NCBI GenBank assembly: GCA_016868035.1
Contig: VGID01000018.1
Coordinates: 1 to 64,000, forward strand
DNA length: 64,000 nt
Source: Betaproteobacteria bacterium
GTDB taxonomy: Bacteria > Pseudomonadota > Gammaproteobacteria > Burkholderiales > SG8-41
Direction of reading: 5' to 3'
Part shown: positions 38,898 to 53,478 of the stretch, piece by piece
How the letters are laid out: every line of letters begins with the position of its first letter
Position numbering within the stretch: position 1 is the stretch's first letter
Program-made: the position numbers and the translations under genes
Notes under the pieces: model-generated
Told to the model about the DNA's origin: nothing
The model's database searches: none
What the model saw: the letters and a program-made list of their open reading frames with translations, nothing else

Positions 38898-40517
38898 GTG
38901 AAGCAAGCGAGTCGCAGGAAATTCGTGTTCGCCGCCGGCGCGACAGCGGGCACGGCGGGACTCGCAGCCGGGCTCTGGCGGTGGTACCGGGCGGGGCACG
39001 ACGCGCACGCCCCGCACGCGTTGCCCAAGCCCCCCGTCGCTCCGCCCACGGCCGCCGACGACGCGTTTCCGAACGCGCTGCGCCTGCCCGGGGCCGCCGG
39101 ACTCTACGGCGTCGTCGACCATCCGCGCAATCTCACGCTCATCGCGAAACCAGCCGCGCACGAGATCCTTCCCGGCAAACCCGCGCGGCTGCTCGCCTAC
39201 GAGGCGGAGGCGAACGGCAGGACCTTTCTCAACCCGGTGCTCAGGGTGCGCACCGGCGCGGCGATGCGCGTGAAGTTCTGGAACGCGCTCGAGGAGACGA
39301 GCATCATCCACTGGCACGGGCTCAAGGTGGACAGCAACAACGACGGCCACCCGCACTACGCGGTGCGCGGCGGCGCGACCTACGACTACCAGTTCACGGT
39401 GGCGAACCGCGCCGCCATGTACTGGTACCACCCGCATCCCCATCCGCTCACGGGCAAGCAGGTCTACCTCGGGCTCGCGGGACTCCTCATCGTCGAGGAC
39501 GAGGACGACCTCGCGCTGCAGAAGGCGCTCGATCTCCGGCTCGGGGCGACCGATATCCCGCTCGTGTTGCAGGATCGCAAGCTCGACGCAAACGGAGCGC
39601 CGGTGTTCGCGCCCAGCAAGGACGACCGGTTTCACGGGCATCTCGGCGACCAGGTGCTCGTCAACCTCACCGCGCGGCCGCACTTCGCGGCGGCAACCCG
39701 CCTCTACCGCTTCCGCATCCTCAACGGCTCGAACGCGCGCGTGTACCGGCTCGGATTCCGTCACGGCGGGAAGCCGCTCGGCTATTTCGTGACCGGCACC
39801 GACGGCGGATTGCTGGACAAGCCCTACAGCGTTCAGGACGTATTCCTCTCGCCCGGCGAGCGGGTGGACGCGTTGCTCGACCTGCGCGCAGCGGCGGCCG
39901 GCGACACGCTCTCGCTCGTGAGTCTCGGCTTCGACGCGATGCATCTCGAGGGCGGGAAAGGCGCCCCCCACGCGGCGCACGGCGCGCTGGCCGACGGCGC
40001 CGAGATCGAGTTGCTTCGTATCCCGGTGCGCAGCGCGGTCGCCTACGACCGTGCGCTGCCGCAATCCCTCTCGCGCATCGAGCCGCTCGCGACGGAGAAC
40101 GCTACGAACCGTACGCTCACCCTCGACGAAGCAAAGGCGGTGTGGCGCATCAACGGTCTCACCTACGACCAGAAGTCCACGCCGATTGTGGTGAAGCGCG
40201 GAACGACCGAGTTGTGGGAGATCCGCAACGTCGCACGCAGCATGCCGCACCCGATGCACATCCACGGCGTGCAGTTCCAGGTGGTCGCGCGCGCAGGCAG
40301 TCCGGAGCAGTACCGGCGGATCGCCAATGCCCCGCGCTCATTGAGCCCGGCCGACCTCGGCTGGAAGGACACCGTGCTGGTATGGCCGGGCGAGACGATC
40401 CGCATCGCGGTGGACTTCACGCATCCCTTCATGGGCGACCAGGTCTACATGGTCCACTGCCACAACCTCGAGCACGAGGACGGCGGAATGATGCTCAATC
40501 TGAAGGTGGCGTCCTAG
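38898..40517 (+). CDS. Multicopper oxidase, periplasmic
   Basis: A 539-residue multicopper oxidase with a twin-Arg signal (SRRKFVFAAGATAGTAG). Copper sites are in order: HWHGLKVD, MYWYHPHPHPLTG, HPMHIHGVQFQ and the last cluster MVHCHNLEHEDGGMM, where HCHNLEHEDGGM holds the type 1 Cys and Met. Such enzymes oxidise Cu(I) (CopA/CueO-like) or other substrates in the periplasm. The GTG start follows a weak GAGGCGGGA. The location in a copper island supports a role in copper detoxification. Confidence 0.92.
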   Translation: MKQASRRKFVFAAGATAGTAGLAAGLWRWYRAGHDAHAPHALPKPPVAPPTAADDAFPNALRLPGAAGLYGVVDHPRNLTLIAKPAAHEILPGKPARLLAYEAEANGRTFLNPVLRVRTGAAMRVKFWNALEETSIIHWHGLKVDSNNDGHPHYAVRGGATYDYQFTVANRAAMYWYHPHPHPLTGKQVYLGLAGLLIVEDEDDLALQKALDLRLGATDIPLVLQDRKLDANGAPVFAPSKDDRFHGHLGDQVLVNLTARPHFAAATRLYRFRILNGSNARVYRLGFRHGGKPLGYFVTGTDGGLLDKPYSVQDVFLSPGERVDALLDLRAAAAGDTLSLVSLGFDAMHLEGGKGAPHAAHGALADGAEIELLRIPVRSAVAYDRALPQSLSRIEPLATENATNRTLTLDEAKAVWRINGLTYDQKSTPIVVKRGTTELWEIRNVARSMPHPMHIHGVQFQVVARAGSPEQYRRIANAPRSLSPADLGWKDTVLVWPGETIRIAVDFTHPFMGDQVYMVHCHNLEHEDGGMMLNLKVAS

Positions 40518-42022: not shown

Positions 42023-42709
42023 ATGCGCGAGCCACGTCAGGAAAAACTCATCCCCGCGCTGGGGTTTCGATGGCTCACTCCGGCCTACGACCTCGTCGTG
42101 CGGCTAACCACGCGCGAGGCCGCGTTCAAGGCGGCGCTGGTCGCGCAGCTCGAGCTGCCGCCCGCGGCGCGAGTGCTCGATCTGGGCTGCGGCACCGCCA
42201 CCCTCACACTCATGCTGAAGCGCCGCTTTCCGCAGGCGAGCGTCGCGGGCGTGGACGGCGACGCGGAGATCCTGCGCATCGCCCGCGAAAAAGTGCGCCG
42301 TTCCGGACTGGACGTGGACCTCAGGGAAGCAATGGCGCAGGCACTGCCGTATGCTGACGCCTCGTTCGATTGCGTGGCCTCGAGCCTGTTCTTCCACCAC
42401 CTCGAGCGCGCGGCCAAGCTCGCGGTGCTCGCCGAAACCCGGCGCGTCCTCAAGCCAGGCGGCGCGCTCCACGTCGCCGATTGGGGCGGCGCGACCGGAC
42501 CTCTCTCGCGCGGCGCGTTTGTCATGGTCCAGCTGCTCGACGGCTTTCCCAACACCGCCGACAACGTGGCGGGGCGGCTCCCGGGGCTGATGGAACAGGC
42601 GGGCTATGCATCCGCCCGCGAGACACAGCGCCTTCTCACCGTCTTCGGCAATATCTCGCTCTACGGCGCGCAGAAGCCGCATGAGCGTTTGGAAGCAGCA
42701 CGCGCATGA
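42023..42709 (+). CDS. SAM-dependent methyltransferase (UbiE-like)
   Basis: A 228-residue class I methyltransferase. Motif I is ARVLDLGCGTATLTLMLKRR, then VAGVDGDAEILRIA, ASFDCVASSLFFHHLERAAK and RRVLKPGGALHVADWGG. The substrate is unknown. The stop overlaps the start of the cytochrome gene at 42706 (ATGA), so it belongs to the same operon. This type is frequent in metal and respiration clusters. Confidence 0.85.
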   Translation: MREPRQEKLIPALGFRWLTPAYDLVVRLTTREAAFKAALVAQLELPPAARVLDLGCGTATLTLMLKRRFPQASVAGVDGDAEILRIAREKVRRSGLDVDLREAMAQALPYADASFDCVASSLFFHHLERAAKLAVLAETRRVLKPGGALHVADWGGATGPLSRGAFVMVQLLDGFPNTADNVAGRLPGLMEQAGYASARETQRLLTVFGNISLYGAQKPHERLEAARA

Positions 42710-43197
42710 AGGACACTACGTCGCTACGTAACCGTATTGGCCTCGGAGTACTTGCGGCCATGATCGCGTTTCTCGCCGGCGCGATCACCGTCGCGCTCTG
42801 GACCGGGGAAAAACCGCCCGCCGACCCGGACGATGCCGCGCAGGTCGCCCGCGGCAAGCCGGTGTACGAGAAGTACTGCGCGGCCTGCCACGGCGCTCGG
42901 CTCGAGGGACAGCCCGAGTGGCAGAAGCCGCTCGCGAGCGGGCGCATGCCCGCGCCCCCGCACGACGCGTCCGGCCACACGTGGCATCACCCCGATCTGA
43001 TGCTCTTCGGCATGACCAAGCACGGCTTGGTGCCGGGGCGCTACGCGCCGCCGGGGCATCAGAGCGACATGCCGCCGTTCGGTGGAGTTCTTTCCGACGA
43101 GGAGATCTGGGCGGTGCTCGCCTACATCAAGTCGTACTGGCCACCGGAGATCCGCGCGGCGCAGCTCCAAATGTCGAGGAGGCAGCGCGGGCGATGA
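42706..43197 (+). CDS. Membrane-anchored monoheme cytochrome c
   Basis: A 163-residue class I cytochrome c with an N-terminal anchor (GLGVLAAMIAFLAGAITVAL). The heme motif is CAACHG and the distal Met is probably in HQSDMPPFGGVLSDEEIWA. It probably acts in the periplasm as an electron carrier for the oxidase genes downstream; this is inferred from context. Maturation would need the ccm operon at 58108-63836. Confidence 0.88.
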   Translation: MKDTTSLRNRIGLGVLAAMIAFLAGAITVALWTGEKPPADPDDAAQVARGKPVYEKYCAACHGARLEGQPEWQKPLASGRMPAPPHDASGHTWHHPDLMLFGMTKHGLVPGRYAPPGHQSDMPPFGGVLSDEEIWAVLAYIKSYWPPEIRAAQLQMSRRQRGR

Positions 43198-43288: not shown

Positions 43289-43373
43289 CCCGTCCGACCG
43301 GCCGAAGCATAGGATGTGCCAAAATGAAACTTGTCGAGCCTGTCGCAGTCAGATCAAGGCGACCGTGACCCCG

Positions 43374-43784
43374 ATGTCCGCCACAACTCTGCCCGATTTC
43401 GCCCGCCGTGGGTCCAGGCGACGTATTTCCGCGTGGCTGATCGCGGGCTGGGCCGCCTTCTGGCTCGTCAGCGTGCTGCATCCCTGCTGTGGTCACTCCA
43501 TCGGCGACGCGCATGCGGCACACCCGCTGTCCGCCGGTCTGCATGCTTCATCGTACACGGACGAATGCGTTGACAACGTCTGCGCGACGCGCATCAAGGC
43601 AATTGCGGTGCCGCAGATCGCCTTCGCGGTACCCGCGGCGCTGCCGGAGCTTCCCACCGTAAGCTTCGCAGCGCCGCTGCGGCTCGCCGGCTACGGTCCC
43701 GAACCTTGCGCCGCGCTCCACGCGGCCAATGCTCCGCCGTCTTCCGTTCCGATCTACCTGCGCACCGCGCGCCTGCTGATCTGA
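43374..43784 (+). CDS. DUF2946-like membrane or exported protein
   Basis: A 136-residue protein. An N-terminal hydrophobic segment WLIAGWAAFWLVSVLHPCCG is followed by a His- and Cys-containing stretch (SIGDAHAAHPLSAGL and DECVDNVCATRI) and a Pro-rich C-terminus. This arrangement resembles small exported DUF2946-type proteins near copper genes. The Cys pair and His could bind copper. It is the first gene after the FNR box. Confidence 0.55.
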   Translation: MSATTLPDFARRGSRRRISAWLIAGWAAFWLVSVLHPCCGHSIGDAHAAHPLSAGLHASSYTDECVDNVCATRIKAIAVPQIAFAVPAALPELPTVSFAAPLRLAGYGPEPCAALHAANAPPSSVPIYLRTARLLI

Positions 43785-43904: not shown

Positions 43905-44585
43905 ATGAAAGAACATTCCAGCCCGCCGCCGTCCCACTTCACGACGCGCCGCGGCTTCATCGTCGCAGCCGGCTTCGGCGTGGTGAGTCTCTATGGATTG
44001 TGGGCCGCTTACGGCGCCGCGCCGCTGCGGCTGAAGGCGCACGACGAGGACGCAGCGCCCGACCACATGGGAGGGCACGGCGGCCACGGCCGCGCGAGGG
44101 GCCCGGACGTCGACGCATTCCGGCGGCAAACCGAGGAGTTCATCGAGGCCAACAAGCTCCCCGACGGCAGCGTCCGGCCCGCACGCGGCAACGCCGCCCT
44201 GCTCGCGGCTACGGAGAAAGCGCACCACGCGCTGCATGATCCGGAACAGCGCGAAAAACTCGCGCTTCCCACCGCGGCGCAGAACGCGGGGAAACGGGCA
44301 GCGAACGCGCCGGATGTCTATCTCGCCGCCTACCAGTGGGGCTTCCTGCCCGCCGTGCTGCGGCTCGACGCGGGCGTGCCCTACCGTTTTCACATGATGG
44401 CGGTGGACGTGACGCATGGCGCCTCGCTGCGCGTCGGGCGCGGCGGCCACATCATACGGCTGCGCGCCGGCACCTTGGTCGAGCGCGAGCTGCGCTTCAC
44501 CCGCCCCGGCGAGTACCTCGTCTATTGCACGATCTACTGCGGCATGCTGCACGACCGCATGCAGGGCAAGATCATCGTCGCCTGA
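43905..44585 (+). CDS. coxB: Cytochrome c oxidase subunit II (CuA)
   Basis: A 226-residue subunit of a ba3-type oxidase. There is one N-terminal membrane segment (GFIVAAGFGVVSLYGLWAAY) preceded by TTRRGF, then a His-rich linker (DHMGGHGGHGRARG) and a cupredoxin domain. CuA ligands are clear: the His in MAVDVTHGASL, and CTIYCGMLHDRM, which has the C-x3-C-x3-H-x2-M spacing of the Thermus ba3 oxidase. It should take electrons from cytochrome c. It precedes subunit I by 22 bases. Confidence 0.9.
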   Translation: MKEHSSPPPSHFTTRRGFIVAAGFGVVSLYGLWAAYGAAPLRLKAHDEDAAPDHMGGHGGHGRARGPDVDAFRRQTEEFIEANKLPDGSVRPARGNAALLAATEKAHHALHDPEQREKLALPTAAQNAGKRAANAPDVYLAAYQWGFLPAVLRLDAGVPYRFHMMAVDVTHGASLRVGRGGHIIRLRAGTLVERELRFTRPGEYLVYCTIYCGMLHDRMQGKIIVA

Positions 44586-44607: not shown

Positions 44608-46275
44608 ATGACACCACATCCACTGCTCGACCACCTGAAACAGCTCCCCGCAGCCGACAAGCGCCTGCTGCTCGCGTTTTTCGGCGCCGGACTCGTGACG
44701 CTCGCGCTCGGCGTGCTCGCCGGCGCCGGCACCGCGCTCGTGCGCGCCGGCTTGATCGATCCGGCACCGTACTTCGGCTACCGGCTGATGACGATGCACG
44801 GGATCAACATCTTCTTCTACTGGCTGTATTTCGCGCAGGCGGGACTGCTGCTCGCGTTCTCCGCGACGCACGCCGCGCATGCCCGGCACATGGAGTGGCG
44901 GCGGCTCGCGTGGCTGGGCTACGCCGCCATGGTCGCCGGGTTCGTGCTGAGCCAGGTCGGCGCGGCGAGCGGCGTGCCGCTGCTCTACGACGCGCCGCCG
45001 GAGCTTGCGCGTTTTGCTTCCGCTGCCGTGGGCTCGATCTATCTCGGCTACCTGTCCCTTGCGCTGGGGCTGTTCTGCGTGGCCGTCTCGGCCGTCGCCT
45101 CGGTCGTCCTGCCGCGCTTCGCCGGGCGCACGGTAAGCCTGTCGCCCATCGGCTTCGCCTCCATCGCATGGGCCGGCCTGCTGATGGTGAGCGCGCTCGC
45201 GGCGGTCAATGCCTTCCTCCCGGCAGCACTGTGGGCGTTCGAGAAAGGCCCGCTGCCCGAGGATTACGCCACCGGCTGGCACGTTCTATTCCACAACATG
45301 CATTACCTGCCGTTGATGGCGACGGTCGTCACGTGGTACGTACTGGTAAAGGCGCTGTTCGGCATCGAATCCATCTTCGGGCCGCGCTTCTCGAAGATCG
45401 TGTTCTCGACCTATCTCATCTTCGTGCCCCCGACCTCGCTCTACCACATGTTCCTCGAGCCGGGCCTGGCGGAGCCGGTGCGCGTGGTGGGGTCGCTCCT
45501 CTCGCTCTTCATCAGCGTGCCGACGGTCCTGGTGTTCCTGATCATCGTTGCCTCGCTGGAGACCCATGCCCGCGCGCACGGTGCCAGCGGCCTCTTCGGC
45601 TGGATCCGGATGCTGCCGTGGCGCAACCCGGTGATGGCCGCGGTCGGCATGGCCGTCGTCAACCTCGCGGCCGGCGGCGCGCTCTCGTTCGTGCTGATCC
45701 AGGAGAAGCTCGCGCCGCTGCTGAGCGACACCTTCTTCGTGCCGGGATACTTCCACTTCCTCACGGTGGGCACGGTCACGCTCACGTTCCTCGGTGCGCT
45801 GTGCTACCTGATCCCCGGCCTCACCGGCCGCCCGCTGTGGAACCCGCGGCTGCTGGCGGGGCTGCCCTACCTCGCCACCGCCGGGCTCGCGCTGTTCGGA
45901 ACAGCCGGGGTCATTGCCGGCTATCTCGGCGCGCCGCGCCGCGTCCTCGATCTCTCGTACGCGGGCGACGCGCCGGCCTCCTGGCAGGTGCTGATGGGCG
46001 TCGTGGGCACAGGCGGAATGCTGATGGCGATAGCGCTGATTCTCTACATCCTCGCGCTTGCGGTGACCTTCCTCAAGCGCGCGCCGCAGGCCGCCGCGCT
46101 CGATTTCGGATTGCCGGGATGGAACCTCGCGGGCGCGGTACCGGCGCGCGAGCTGGCGTGGACCGGCCCGCTCTCGATCCTGATCCTGGTGGGCACGATG
46201 GCACTTTTCACGGTGGTCGCGTTCGAAATGATCAAGGCCGCGCCGCTGGCCGCAATCGGCAGCGGCGCACACTGA
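44608..46275 (+). CDS. Atypical heme-copper oxidase subunit I (B-family)
   Basis: A 555-residue, 12-14 helix protein close to ba3-type subunit I (GLFGWIRMLPWRNPV is shared with the Thermus enzyme). The low-spin heme ligands are kept: His64 in MTMHGINIFFYW and His383 in VPGYFHF. The active site differs. The helix VI site reads HNMHY (His229, His232, Tyr233; usual HPxVY), the helix VII pair HH is YH (Tyr279, His280), and the helix X high-spin heme ligand, first His of HFH, is Tyr381. Both changes are CAC to TAC. The partner CuA subunit is normal. It may not reduce O2 in the usual way. Confidence 0.85.
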   Translation: MTPHPLLDHLKQLPAADKRLLLAFFGAGLVTLALGVLAGAGTALVRAGLIDPAPYFGYRLMTMHGINIFFYWLYFAQAGLLLAFSATHAAHARHMEWRRLAWLGYAAMVAGFVLSQVGAASGVPLLYDAPPELARFASAAVGSIYLGYLSLALGLFCVAVSAVASVVLPRFAGRTVSLSPIGFASIAWAGLLMVSALAAVNAFLPAALWAFEKGPLPEDYATGWHVLFHNMHYLPLMATVVTWYVLVKALFGIESIFGPRFSKIVFSTYLIFVPPTSLYHMFLEPGLAEPVRVVGSLLSLFISVPTVLVFLIIVASLETHARAHGASGLFGWIRMLPWRNPVMAAVGMAVVNLAAGGALSFVLIQEKLAPLLSDTFFVPGYFHFLTVGTVTLTFLGALCYLIPGLTGRPLWNPRLLAGLPYLATAGLALFGTAGVIAGYLGAPRRVLDLSYAGDAPASWQVLMGVVGTGGMLMAIALILYILALAVTFLKRAPQAAALDFGLPGWNLAGAVPARELAWTGPLSILILVGTMALFTVVAFEMIKAAPLAAIGSGAH

Positions 46276-46290
46276 GAGGGGACACCAGCC

Positions 46291-46506
46291 ATGAAACAGG
46301 ATTTCTCGCTGCTCGTGATCGTCGCCGTGGTATGGGCGGTGCTCGCGCTGCTCTACGCCACGGTGCCGATGTTCCACATGCCGGGCTACGCTGCGGTGTG
46401 GGGATTGGGCGCGGTCGTGTTCCTCGCGCTGGCCGCGGCGATCGCGGCAGCCTCCCGCCGCGAGCGCAAGCGGCACGAACATCACGGAGAGGCGTCCCAT
46501 GAATAG
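46291..46506 (+). CDS. Small two-helix membrane protein of the oxidase operon
   Basis: A 71-residue protein with two membrane helices (SLLVIVAVVWAVLALLYA and WGLGAVVFLALAAAIAAAS) and a basic/His-rich end (RRERKRHEHHGEASHE). It starts 15 bases after subunit I and overlaps the next gene. It could be an accessory subunit of the oxidase; no family is recognised. Confidence 0.72.
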   Translation: MKQDFSLLVIVAVVWAVLALLYATVPMFHMPGYAAVWGLGAVVFLALAAAIAAASRRERKRHEHHGEASHE

Positions 46507-46966
46507 CCACGCCAGATCCGCAGTGCGGCCCGCCGGTTTCGGGCTGCTGGCGTTCGGTCTGCTGCTTGCCCTCTACTTCGGGGTGCTGACGCTGGTCTCG
46601 GGCTGGACGTTCACGCTCGAGCAGTTCTCTGGGTTCTGGTACTACATCGTGCCGCTCGCCGCCGGTTTCGGGCTCCAGGTCGCGCTTTTCATCCGCCTGC
46701 GGCAGGTCGTGCATCAATCCGGGGAATCGGGCGCGGTGATGGCCGCGTCCGGCACTACCTCGACCGCCGCGATGATCTCGTGCTGCGCCCACTATCTCGT
46801 GAATGTCGCGCCGGTGCTCGGCGCAACCGGGCTCGCGACCCTGGCCGCCCAGTACCAAGTCGAATTCTTCTGGGTCGGGCTCGCGTTCAATGCAGCCGGC
46901 ATTGCCTACATCGGCAGCAAGCTCTACAACGCTACGAAGGAGCACGCACAATGCGCGCACGCCTGA
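46499..46966 (+). CDS. Membrane protein with a CCAHY metal-like motif
   Basis: A 155-residue protein with four membrane helices. The third begins SGTTSTAAMISCCAHYLVNV, a Cys-Cys-x-His motif typical of small transporters or metal-binding membrane proteins in copper and mercury clusters. It overlaps the gene before it and the next gene start lies inside its last codons, so the four genes form a tight unit. Copper delivery to the oxidase is a reasonable but unproven idea. Confidence 0.7.
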   Translation: MNSHARSAVRPAGFGLLAFGLLLALYFGVLTLVSGWTFTLEQFSGFWYYIVPLAAGFGLQVALFIRLRQVVHQSGESGAVMAASGTTSTAAMISCCAHYLVNVAPVLGATGLATLAAQYQVEFFWVGLAFNAAGIAYIGSKLYNATKEHAQCAHA

Positions 46967-47349
46967 TTCTTCCTGTTCTCTTTCTCGCCTCCGTGCTCTT
47001 CGGCATGGGCGCCTCCATGGCCCAGAGCCTCTCTGCGCAGTCGAGCAGCGCGGCCGGTGTCACCATCAAAGCCACGCCGCGCGCGCTCTCCGGCGGCGCG
47101 TGGGAATTCGAGATCGTGTTCGACACGCACACGCAGGAACTGAAGGACGACCTCATGAAATCGGCCTCGCTCGCCTCCGACGGAAGGAGTCTCGCCCCCG
47201 CCGCATGGAAGGGCGATCCGCCCGGCGGCCATCACCGCAAAGGCGTGTTGAGGTTCGACGCGGCCGACCCGCAATCGAAGACGATCGAGCTCACCATCAC
47301 GCGGCCGGGGGAGCCGAAGCCGCGTTCTTTCCGCTGGCAGCTCAAGTGA
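46951..47349 (+). CDS. Exported hypothetical protein
   Basis: A 132-residue protein with a signal peptide ([20 protein letters not shown]) and a beta-rich domain: [38 protein letters not shown] and [20 protein letters not shown]. The immunoglobulin-like layout and GDPPGGHH suggest a periplasmic binding or adaptor role. I recognise no named family. It overlaps the upstream gene by 16 bases. Confidence 0.65.
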
Positions 47350-48907: not shown

Positions 48908-49513
48908 ATGTCTGCATCCGATATTGATGACCGGAGGCGCAAGCTCCTCGTCGCGGCGACCACGGCGGCAGGCGGAGCGGCGGTGGCCACGAGCACGGTG
49001 CCCTTCATCGCGTCCATGCTGCCCAGCGAGCGGGCCCGCGCCGCGGGCGCCCCGGTAGACGCTCAATTTCCCAACCTCGAACCCGGGACGCAACTGACGG
49101 TGGAGTGGCGCGGCAAGCCGGTCTGGATCCTGCGCCGCACCGAAGCGATGTTGAAGGCTCTCGAAGCTCAGGAGCACCGCGCGCGACTGGCTGACCCGGA
49201 CTCGGCGGTGAAATACCAGCAGCCGGCCTACGCGCACAACGCGTTTCGCTCCATCAGGCCGGAATACCTGGTGGTCGTGCCGCTCTGCACGCACCTCGGC
49301 TGCGTGCCCACGTTCCGGCCCCAGCCTGCCGCGGCGGACTTGAGCTCCGACTGGCCCGGCGGCTATTTCTGCCCTTGCCACGGCTCGAAATTCGACTTCG
49401 CGGGACGCGTCTGGCGCAACGTGCCGGCCCCCACCAATCTGGTGATCCCGCCGCACCGCTACCTCGGCGACACGGCGGTGAAGATCGGCGAGGATCCGGA
49501 GAAACCCGCATGA
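48908..49513 (+). CDS. petA: Rieske [2Fe-2S] protein, ubiquinol-cytochrome c reductase type
   Basis: A 201-residue Rieske protein. The N-terminal segment RRRKLLVAATTAAGGAAVAT is the Tat-dependent anchor of PetA, including SERARAAGAPVD. The cluster ligands are CTHLGC and CPCHGSKFD. No cytochrome b or c1 gene lies in the window, so it is an orphan that may replace or add to the subunit of a bc1 complex elsewhere, or be the electron donor in this cluster. Confidence 0.88.
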   Translation: MSASDIDDRRRKLLVAATTAAGGAAVATSTVPFIASMLPSERARAAGAPVDAQFPNLEPGTQLTVEWRGKPVWILRRTEAMLKALEAQEHRARLADPDSAVKYQQPAYAHNAFRSIRPEYLVVVPLCTHLGCVPTFRPQPAAADLSSDWPGGYFCPCHGSKFDFAGRVWRNVPAPTNLVIPPHRYLGDTAVKIGEDPEKPA

Positions 49514-50156: not shown

Positions 50157-50588
50157 TCAACGGCCGGCGGCCGGGGCGGCGAGTTCCGTCTCTCCGGAGA
50201 TCGCGGCGATGATCGGGCAGCGCGGGGCCTTCTGGTGCGTCTCGCACTCGTGGAGCAGGTGAGCGAGCACGCGCTCGATGCGACGCAGGTCGGCGATGCG
50301 CCGCCGCGTGTCCTCGAGGTGTGCGCCGGCGATGCGCCGGATCGAGCGGCGGTCGGTCCCGTCCTCGAGCTCGAGCAACGACTGGATTTCCTCGAGCGAG
50401 AAGCCCAGGTCCTGCGCGCGGCGGATGAAGCGGATGCGGTCCACGTGCGCGCTGCCATAGCGGCGATACGCGCCGCGGTCGCGTTCCGGCTGCTCGACCA
50501 GCCCGCGCCGCTCGTAGTAACGCACGGTCTGTATGCCCACGCCCGCCTGGCGCGCCACGCGGGCAATGGTAAGGCCTGTCTCGTGCAT
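50157..50588 (-). CDS. MerR-family metal regulator
   Basis: A 143-residue regulator. The N-terminal winged helix TIARVARQAGVGIQTVRYYE is typical of MerR proteins, with RRYGSAHVDRIRFIRRAQDL and FSLEEIQSLLELED, then a long dimerisation helix. Metal ligands are probably Cys in HECETH and in RCPII (8 residues between). The early Cys that MerR(Hg) needs (at GTDRR here) is absent, so the ligand set is like CueR/ZntR or a novel mix. The divergent promoter at 50598-50628 is its likely target. Confidence 0.85.
   Translation of the reverse strand: MHETGLTIARVARQAGVGIQTVRYYERRGLVEQPERDRGAYRRYGSAHVDRIRFIRRAQDLGFSLEEIQSLLELEDGTDRRSIRRIAGAHLEDTRRRIADLRRIERVLAHLLHECETHQKAPRCPIIAAISGETELAAPAAGR

Positions 50589-50664: not shown

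Positions 50665-53478
<2,814 letters not shown>

Follow-up and report, generated by a model that had tools for sequence, protein, structure and literature searches.

What does a haem-copper oxidase (HCO) subunit become when the ligands of its defining centre are replaced? The question is raised by a gene in a 64,000-nucleotide stretch of betaproteobacterial DNA (contig VGID01000018.1; hereafter, the window). It encodes a homologue of HCO subunit I in which tyrosine stands in the place of the axial histidine of the high-spin haem (Tyr381) and of one histidine ligand of CuB (Tyr279). The original prediction, made from the sequence of the window, took the protein for what is likely a variant enzyme under selection and not a product of decay, and considered a tyrosine-ligated haem of the kind found in catalases. 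Here we describe the family to which this protein belongs, its gene neighbourhoods, and the explanations that may account for its altered centre.

Subunit I and its ligand positions

The reading frame at 44608-46275 (+) is open, encodes 555 amino acids and contains a full COX1 domain (Pfam E 1.5e-37). The closest solved structures by sequence are the chains of Thermus ba3 (about 1e-27). Modelling, which had been suggested as a check on the original prediction, yielded the ba3 fold: an AlphaFold (AF2) model from 68 family members reached a mean pLDDT of 85.7, with local values of 62-73 around residues 271-300, and its best Foldseek matches were ba3 structures (1ehk, E 3e-17, TM 0.77-0.79). By homology and predicted fold, the protein is thus a member of the HCO superfamily as delimited by a COX1 domain and a 12-helix HCO fold. 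The features of the gene are as follows.

44608-46275 (+): HCO-like subunit I, Tyr279 and Tyr381 substituted, His64/His383 retained (COX1 domain, ba3 alignment, AF2/Foldseek, conservation in 88/88 sequences)
45280-45306 (+): helix VI, HVLFHNMHY, with His225, Phe228, His229 (CuB ligand position), His232 (new) and Tyr233 (position of the cross-linked Tyr) (alignments)
45442-45447 (+): helix VII, YH (Tyr279-His280), where other HCOs have HH (alignments)
45712-45726 (+): Ala369-Ser373, family-invariant replacements of Asn/Asp and His (alignments; propionate role by homology)
45748-45756 (+): helix X, YFH (Tyr381-Phe-His383), where other HCOs have HFH (alignments)

The substitutions had first been read from an alignment made by eye, and a HMMER alignment with Thermus ba3 agrees with that reading. 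VPGHFH of helix X corresponds to VPGYFH, FHHQF of helix VII to LYHMF, and HPIVY of helix VI to HNMHY. Tyr381 and Tyr279 are both encoded by TAC (45748-45750 and 45442-45444, respectively), and His232 by CAT (45301-45303). The subunit holds four of the six canonical histidine ligands of HCOs, and the other two are tyrosine in all 88 family members.

The Tyr/Tyr family and its three-gene unit

A scan of contigs returned 96 homologues, 80 of which were kept, all from Pseudomonadota. The initial scan patterns included FFVPGYFH and YHMFLEPG and were therefore biased towards tyrosine, and that scan was not taken as evidence of invariance. Pattern-free searches were performed with the whole protein in 274 genomes of the class, 74 of the family and 398 of the phylum, and with a profile in 337 alphaproteobacterial genomes. 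The sequences recovered were either full members with both tyrosines or distant HCOs with all histidines. Close homologues with histidine at 279 and 381, which would have reduced the substitutions to individual mutations, were sought in all four genome sets and not found. In the profile search, complete members scored 770-863 bits and the next sequences, ordinary HCO homologues, at most 185 bits; no complete gene among the 337 genomes scored between these values, and one further family member was split across two contigs. Three sequences reached without tyrosine patterns (L167, L168 and L169) are also Tyr/Tyr. One genome, G1106, which is titled Roseomonas genomospecies 6 and nests in Azospirillum in the tree, holds two family copies (L060 and L065).

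Seven residues are invariant in the 88 members, Y279, Y381, H229, N230, Y233, H280 and H383, and both tyrosine positions are occupied by histidine in 76/76 outgroup sequences (eNOR-like or ba3-like). Because the two groups divide so completely, Tyr279 and Tyr381 are, as judged from the alignments, a trait of the family and neither chance nor private mutations. In the tree, a single branch (SH-aLRT 100; stem length, 3.5 changes per column) separates all 85 family rows from the other sequences, so that homologues sharing Y-F-H and Y-H form one clade, a point that had been suggested as a check. The sister group consists of eNOR-like HCO homologues (support 98), although the topology comes from a quick search in which some long branches were flagged, and the exact sister group is less certain than the clade. 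A previous assignment of this group as sNOR-like was dropped in favour of eNOR-like, given the Gln at the position of the cross-linked Tyr (PMC8756737). dN/dS was 0.07-0.33 in 10 of 11 pairs and 0.49 in one very close pair. The family is under purifying selection, and with Tyr/Tyr invariant the claim of a selected variant stands.

Subunit I is flanked by two genes that travel with it.

43905-44585 (+): CuA subunit II with a TTRRGF twin-arginine-type leader/anchor and the ligands His171, Cys208, Cys212, His216 and Met219 (Thermus CuA match)
46291-46506 (+): 71-aa membrane protein, proposed third subunit (homologue immediately 3' of subunit I at 80/81 loci)

Subunit II aligns with the Thermus CuA domain (6.3e-10), and its gene is found directly upstream of subunit I in 80/80 loci, usually no more than 60 bases away. 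All five ligands of the cupredoxin (2 Cys, 2 His and 1 Met, as in CuA subunits II) are present in 81/81 sequences, and a twin-arginine-type leader in 71 of the 81. These counts, together with the family alignments of His64 and His383, bear out the original observation that the CuA subunit and the low-spin haem ligands have been kept. The protein encoded directly 3' of subunit I is hydrophobic, with about 60 residues; a Pfam search with the window copy assigned it to no family, and marine gammaproteobacteria (L009, L012, L013, L015-L017 and L020) carry it as a tandem duplicate. We propose that it is a third subunit, apparently representing a new small-subunit family. The three-gene unit is kept in about 80 loci.

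Copper genes and other oxidases in the hosts

In the window, the unit is surrounded by the following genes, together with a DUF411-cluster protein, a second P-type ATPase and further c-type cytochromes.

38898-40517 (+): CueO-like multicopper oxidase (Pfam/NCBIfam)
42706-43197 (+): membrane-anchored c-type cytochrome, candidate electron donor (Cytochrome_CBB3, 7.3e-13; similar cytochromes at other loci)
43314-43784 (+): small, secreted protein with Cys and His residues, encoded 5' of subunit II (no Pfam match; genes in the equivalent position at many loci)
48908-49513 (+): Rieske Fe-S protein with a Tat signal
50157-50588 (-): regulator of the MerR family, oriented divergently to the copper ATPase
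50665-53478 (+): CopA-like P1B ATPase (YHS/HMBD domains; motifs of the Cu type, CPC and [13 protein letters not shown])

Two small genes without Pfam matches lie downstream of the unit. One (46499-46966, +) encodes a membrane protein of 155 aa that carries an ISCCAHY motif and is possibly metal-binding, and the other (46930-47349, +) a secreted protein of ~135 aa with a GGHHR(K/E)GVLRF motif, which is also present in the betaproteobacterial copper loci L001, L003, L004 and L006.

Among the neighbours found across the loci are Cu-type P1B ATPases, CusS/CopR (CopR/S), RND CusABC-type genes, CusF, DUF411, DUF305 and multicopper oxidases. Of 50 loci, 16 contain a Cu-type P1B ATPase, whereas 0.84 would be expected given how many of these genes each genome holds (binomial P 1e-16, for loci that are not phylogenetically independent); when P-type ATPases of every kind are counted, the figure is 21 of 50. 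Whether the clade is tied to copper islands had been suggested as a check, and for many members it is. The tie is not universal, however, as the neighbourhoods of the earliest-branching marine members contain no copper genes, and for this reason the copper link may be a later recruitment. In two of these members (L015 and L020), genes for a multihaem cytochrome c, a 4Fe-4S protein, NrfD and a thioredoxin-like protein lie upstream of the unit, which suggests a quinol-to-cytochrome-c feed. Another two of them, both marine Rhodospirillaceae, carry a two-domain rhodanese upstream of the CuA/Tyr-HCO unit (L010, 5128-6039, 303 aa; L011, 315 aa), a possible link to sulfur.

At least two COX1-family genes were present in each of the 26 host genomes tested, and the genome of the window also holds cbb3-type, eNOR-like (L082) and bd-type genes. 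Since the hosts carry other COX1-family genes, the Tyr/Tyr protein need not be the main or terminal oxidase. The cbb3-type CcoN gene of the same genome (L081, G000:C66:3460-4752) contains one in-frame TAG (...GVMQGLM*), which may reflect inactivation or an assembly error. About 7 kb beyond the eNOR-like gene (G000:C6:58137-59429) lies a second divergent HCO homologue (L084, 66047-67213), which lacks the HH of helix VII and retains HYH in helix X; a similar spacing is seen in G1090 and G730.

The former high-spin haem/CuB centre and known systems

Nine positions that are conserved across the eNOR-like and ba3-like outgroups are replaced, essentially to fixation, in the family: Y82L, L203F, S258G, R263K, H279Y, N369A, H373S, N374D and H381Y. 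Every family member has Ala369 and Ser373, where the outgroups have Asn (75/76) and His (76/76), respectively. We take these two positions to be the equivalents, by homology, of bovine D364 and H368, expected contacts of the ring-A propionate of the high-spin haem, and the replacements would probably remove the propionate contacts of this haem too. On the distal side, the family has Phe228 and, mostly, His225 where most outgroups have Gly and Trp, and His232 where other HCOs mostly have Gln or Val. Neither histidine is invariant; His232 occurs in 87 members and is Gln in the remaining one (L079), and so is apparently not an absolute ligand. Helices VI and VII contain the conserved His/Met residues H229, H232, M237 and M281. 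The low-spin haem ligands H64 and H383 and the arginine pair R444/R445 are retained. With propionate-side, axial and CuB residues replaced and these residues kept, the loss centres on the high-spin haem/CuB site, and the electron-entry side is intact.

The explanation that we favour, to which we would give slightly less than an even chance, is a single-haem enzyme that receives electrons by way of cytochrome c/CuA, has a rebuilt His/Tyr site and was recruited to copper handling. Conservation shows the predicted CuA and low-spin haem sites to be present. Electrons would presumably be delivered by a periplasmic c-type cytochrome or cuproprotein to CuA on subunit II, and from there to the low-spin haem on His64/His383. 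The former high-spin haem/CuB centre would have been rebuilt by loss of the axial His, one CuB His and the expected propionate contacts, with His229, His280 and Tyr233 remaining and His225/His232 added. The high-spin haem would be missing or bound in some unusual manner, and the chemistry would take place there at a copper (or iron) site with His/Tyr ligands. The gene neighbourhood suggests that the enzyme acts under copper stress in the periplasm, its most likely reaction being the oxidation of Cu(I) or of cuproprotein electrons with O2 or a reduced O2 species as acceptor, a substrate step that is conjecture. More tentatively, an HCO lineage may have shed its high-spin haem, so that the centre became a haem-free His/Tyr metal site and the complex a CuA/single-haem enzyme for copper defence, such as a respiratory Cu(I) oxidase; we regard this as possible but doubtful.

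Tyrosine phenolate ligates haem in catalases and haem-uptake proteins. The family might likewise still bind a high-spin haem through the phenolate of Tyr381, and reduce or disproportionate peroxide, O2 or NO at a Tyr-haem/CuB-like centre. Tyr381 is invariant and lies exactly at the axial ligand position, and His229, His280 and Tyr233 are retained on the copper side. Nevertheless, we consider this unlikely, and the catalase-like ligation considered originally is possible but not favoured, since every member has Ala369 and Ser373 in place of the residues expected to hold the propionate (bovine/Thermus numbering); Phe228, His225 and His232 would in addition fill the distal side. Less likely again is a non-catalytic descendant, a membrane copper binder, carrier or sensor that uses CuA and one haem for redox-linked copper transfer. 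The copper-gene neighbourhood and the conserved His/Met residues of helices VI and VII fit such a role, but full retention of the low-spin haem and CuA ligands implies a need for electron transfer, and cytochrome c genes accompany the unit in several loci, as does the multihaem c/FeS/NrfD module in marine members.

An ordinary O2 or NO reductase, with other histidines as ligands of the high-spin haem and CuB, is improbable. A tyrosine at the cross-link position is typical of O2 reductases and Y233 is found there in 88/88 members (the residue only, by alignment), with the extra His225 and His232 on hand. Against this, the alignment allows no other register near H383, R444/R445 and the helix motifs, helix X contains no other histidine, and neither extra histidine is invariant; these points speak against other histidines as the true ligands, which would have undone the original prediction. 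Gene decay, to which the loss of two canonical ligands might point, is refuted by the invariance of Tyr/Tyr in 88 sequences, the purifying selection and the conserved three-gene unit.

The family is a conserved, selected clade that lacks two of three histidines, that of the high-spin haem and the two of helix VII, all of which every outgroup HCO homologue compared possesses. It is rare but well conserved, is often encoded beside copper-resistance genes, and probably performs some chemistry other than that of cytochrome c oxidase. If the haem is gone, the family would show which functions the HCO scaffold can support once its defining centre is lost, and could form a bridge between respiratory machinery and copper detoxification. 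Culturable hosts exist in Azospirillum, Hydrogenophaga and Gemmobacter, where the cofactor question is directly approachable.

To our knowledge, the CueO/Cus/Cop copper-detoxification systems, which are gene neighbours of the family, include no HCO-type subunit, and none was found in the literature searched. That literature also held no description of a Tyr/Tyr HCO family, which is weak evidence as subscription papers were outside its scope, and the novelty of the family is provisional. The subunit II cupredoxin weakly matches the C-termini of nitrous oxide reductase (NosZ); unlike that enzyme, the family has no CuZ domain and is paired with an HCO-like subunit. A published HCO classifier requires six conserved histidines (low-spin haem, high-spin haem and CuB) and discards sequences without them (PMC3084760). 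The family keeps four of the six, and because of this rule and because solved structures hold nothing close, its members are probably annotated, wrongly, as cytochrome c oxidase subunit I. At the position of the cross-linked Tyr, Gln is the criterion for eNOR (Table A4 of PMC8756737), and Glu is found in cNOR/qNOR, Asn in sNOR and Asp in gNOR (PMC8756737); with Tyr233 in 88/88 members, the family carries none of these signatures. The eNOR-like homologues (e.g. L082) are the nearest group in the tree, with 26-29% identity, but keep all six histidines and have HSSQQ in helix VI where the family has HNxHY. Thermus thermophilus ba3, a B-type HCO, is the top PDB match by sequence and fold and shares the CuA domain, the low-spin haem ligands and the tyrosine at the cross-link position. 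The family differs from it in the tyrosines that replace the high-spin haem His and one CuB His, the serine in place of the propionate-side His, the new His232, a different small subunit and the Tat-type leader on subunit II.
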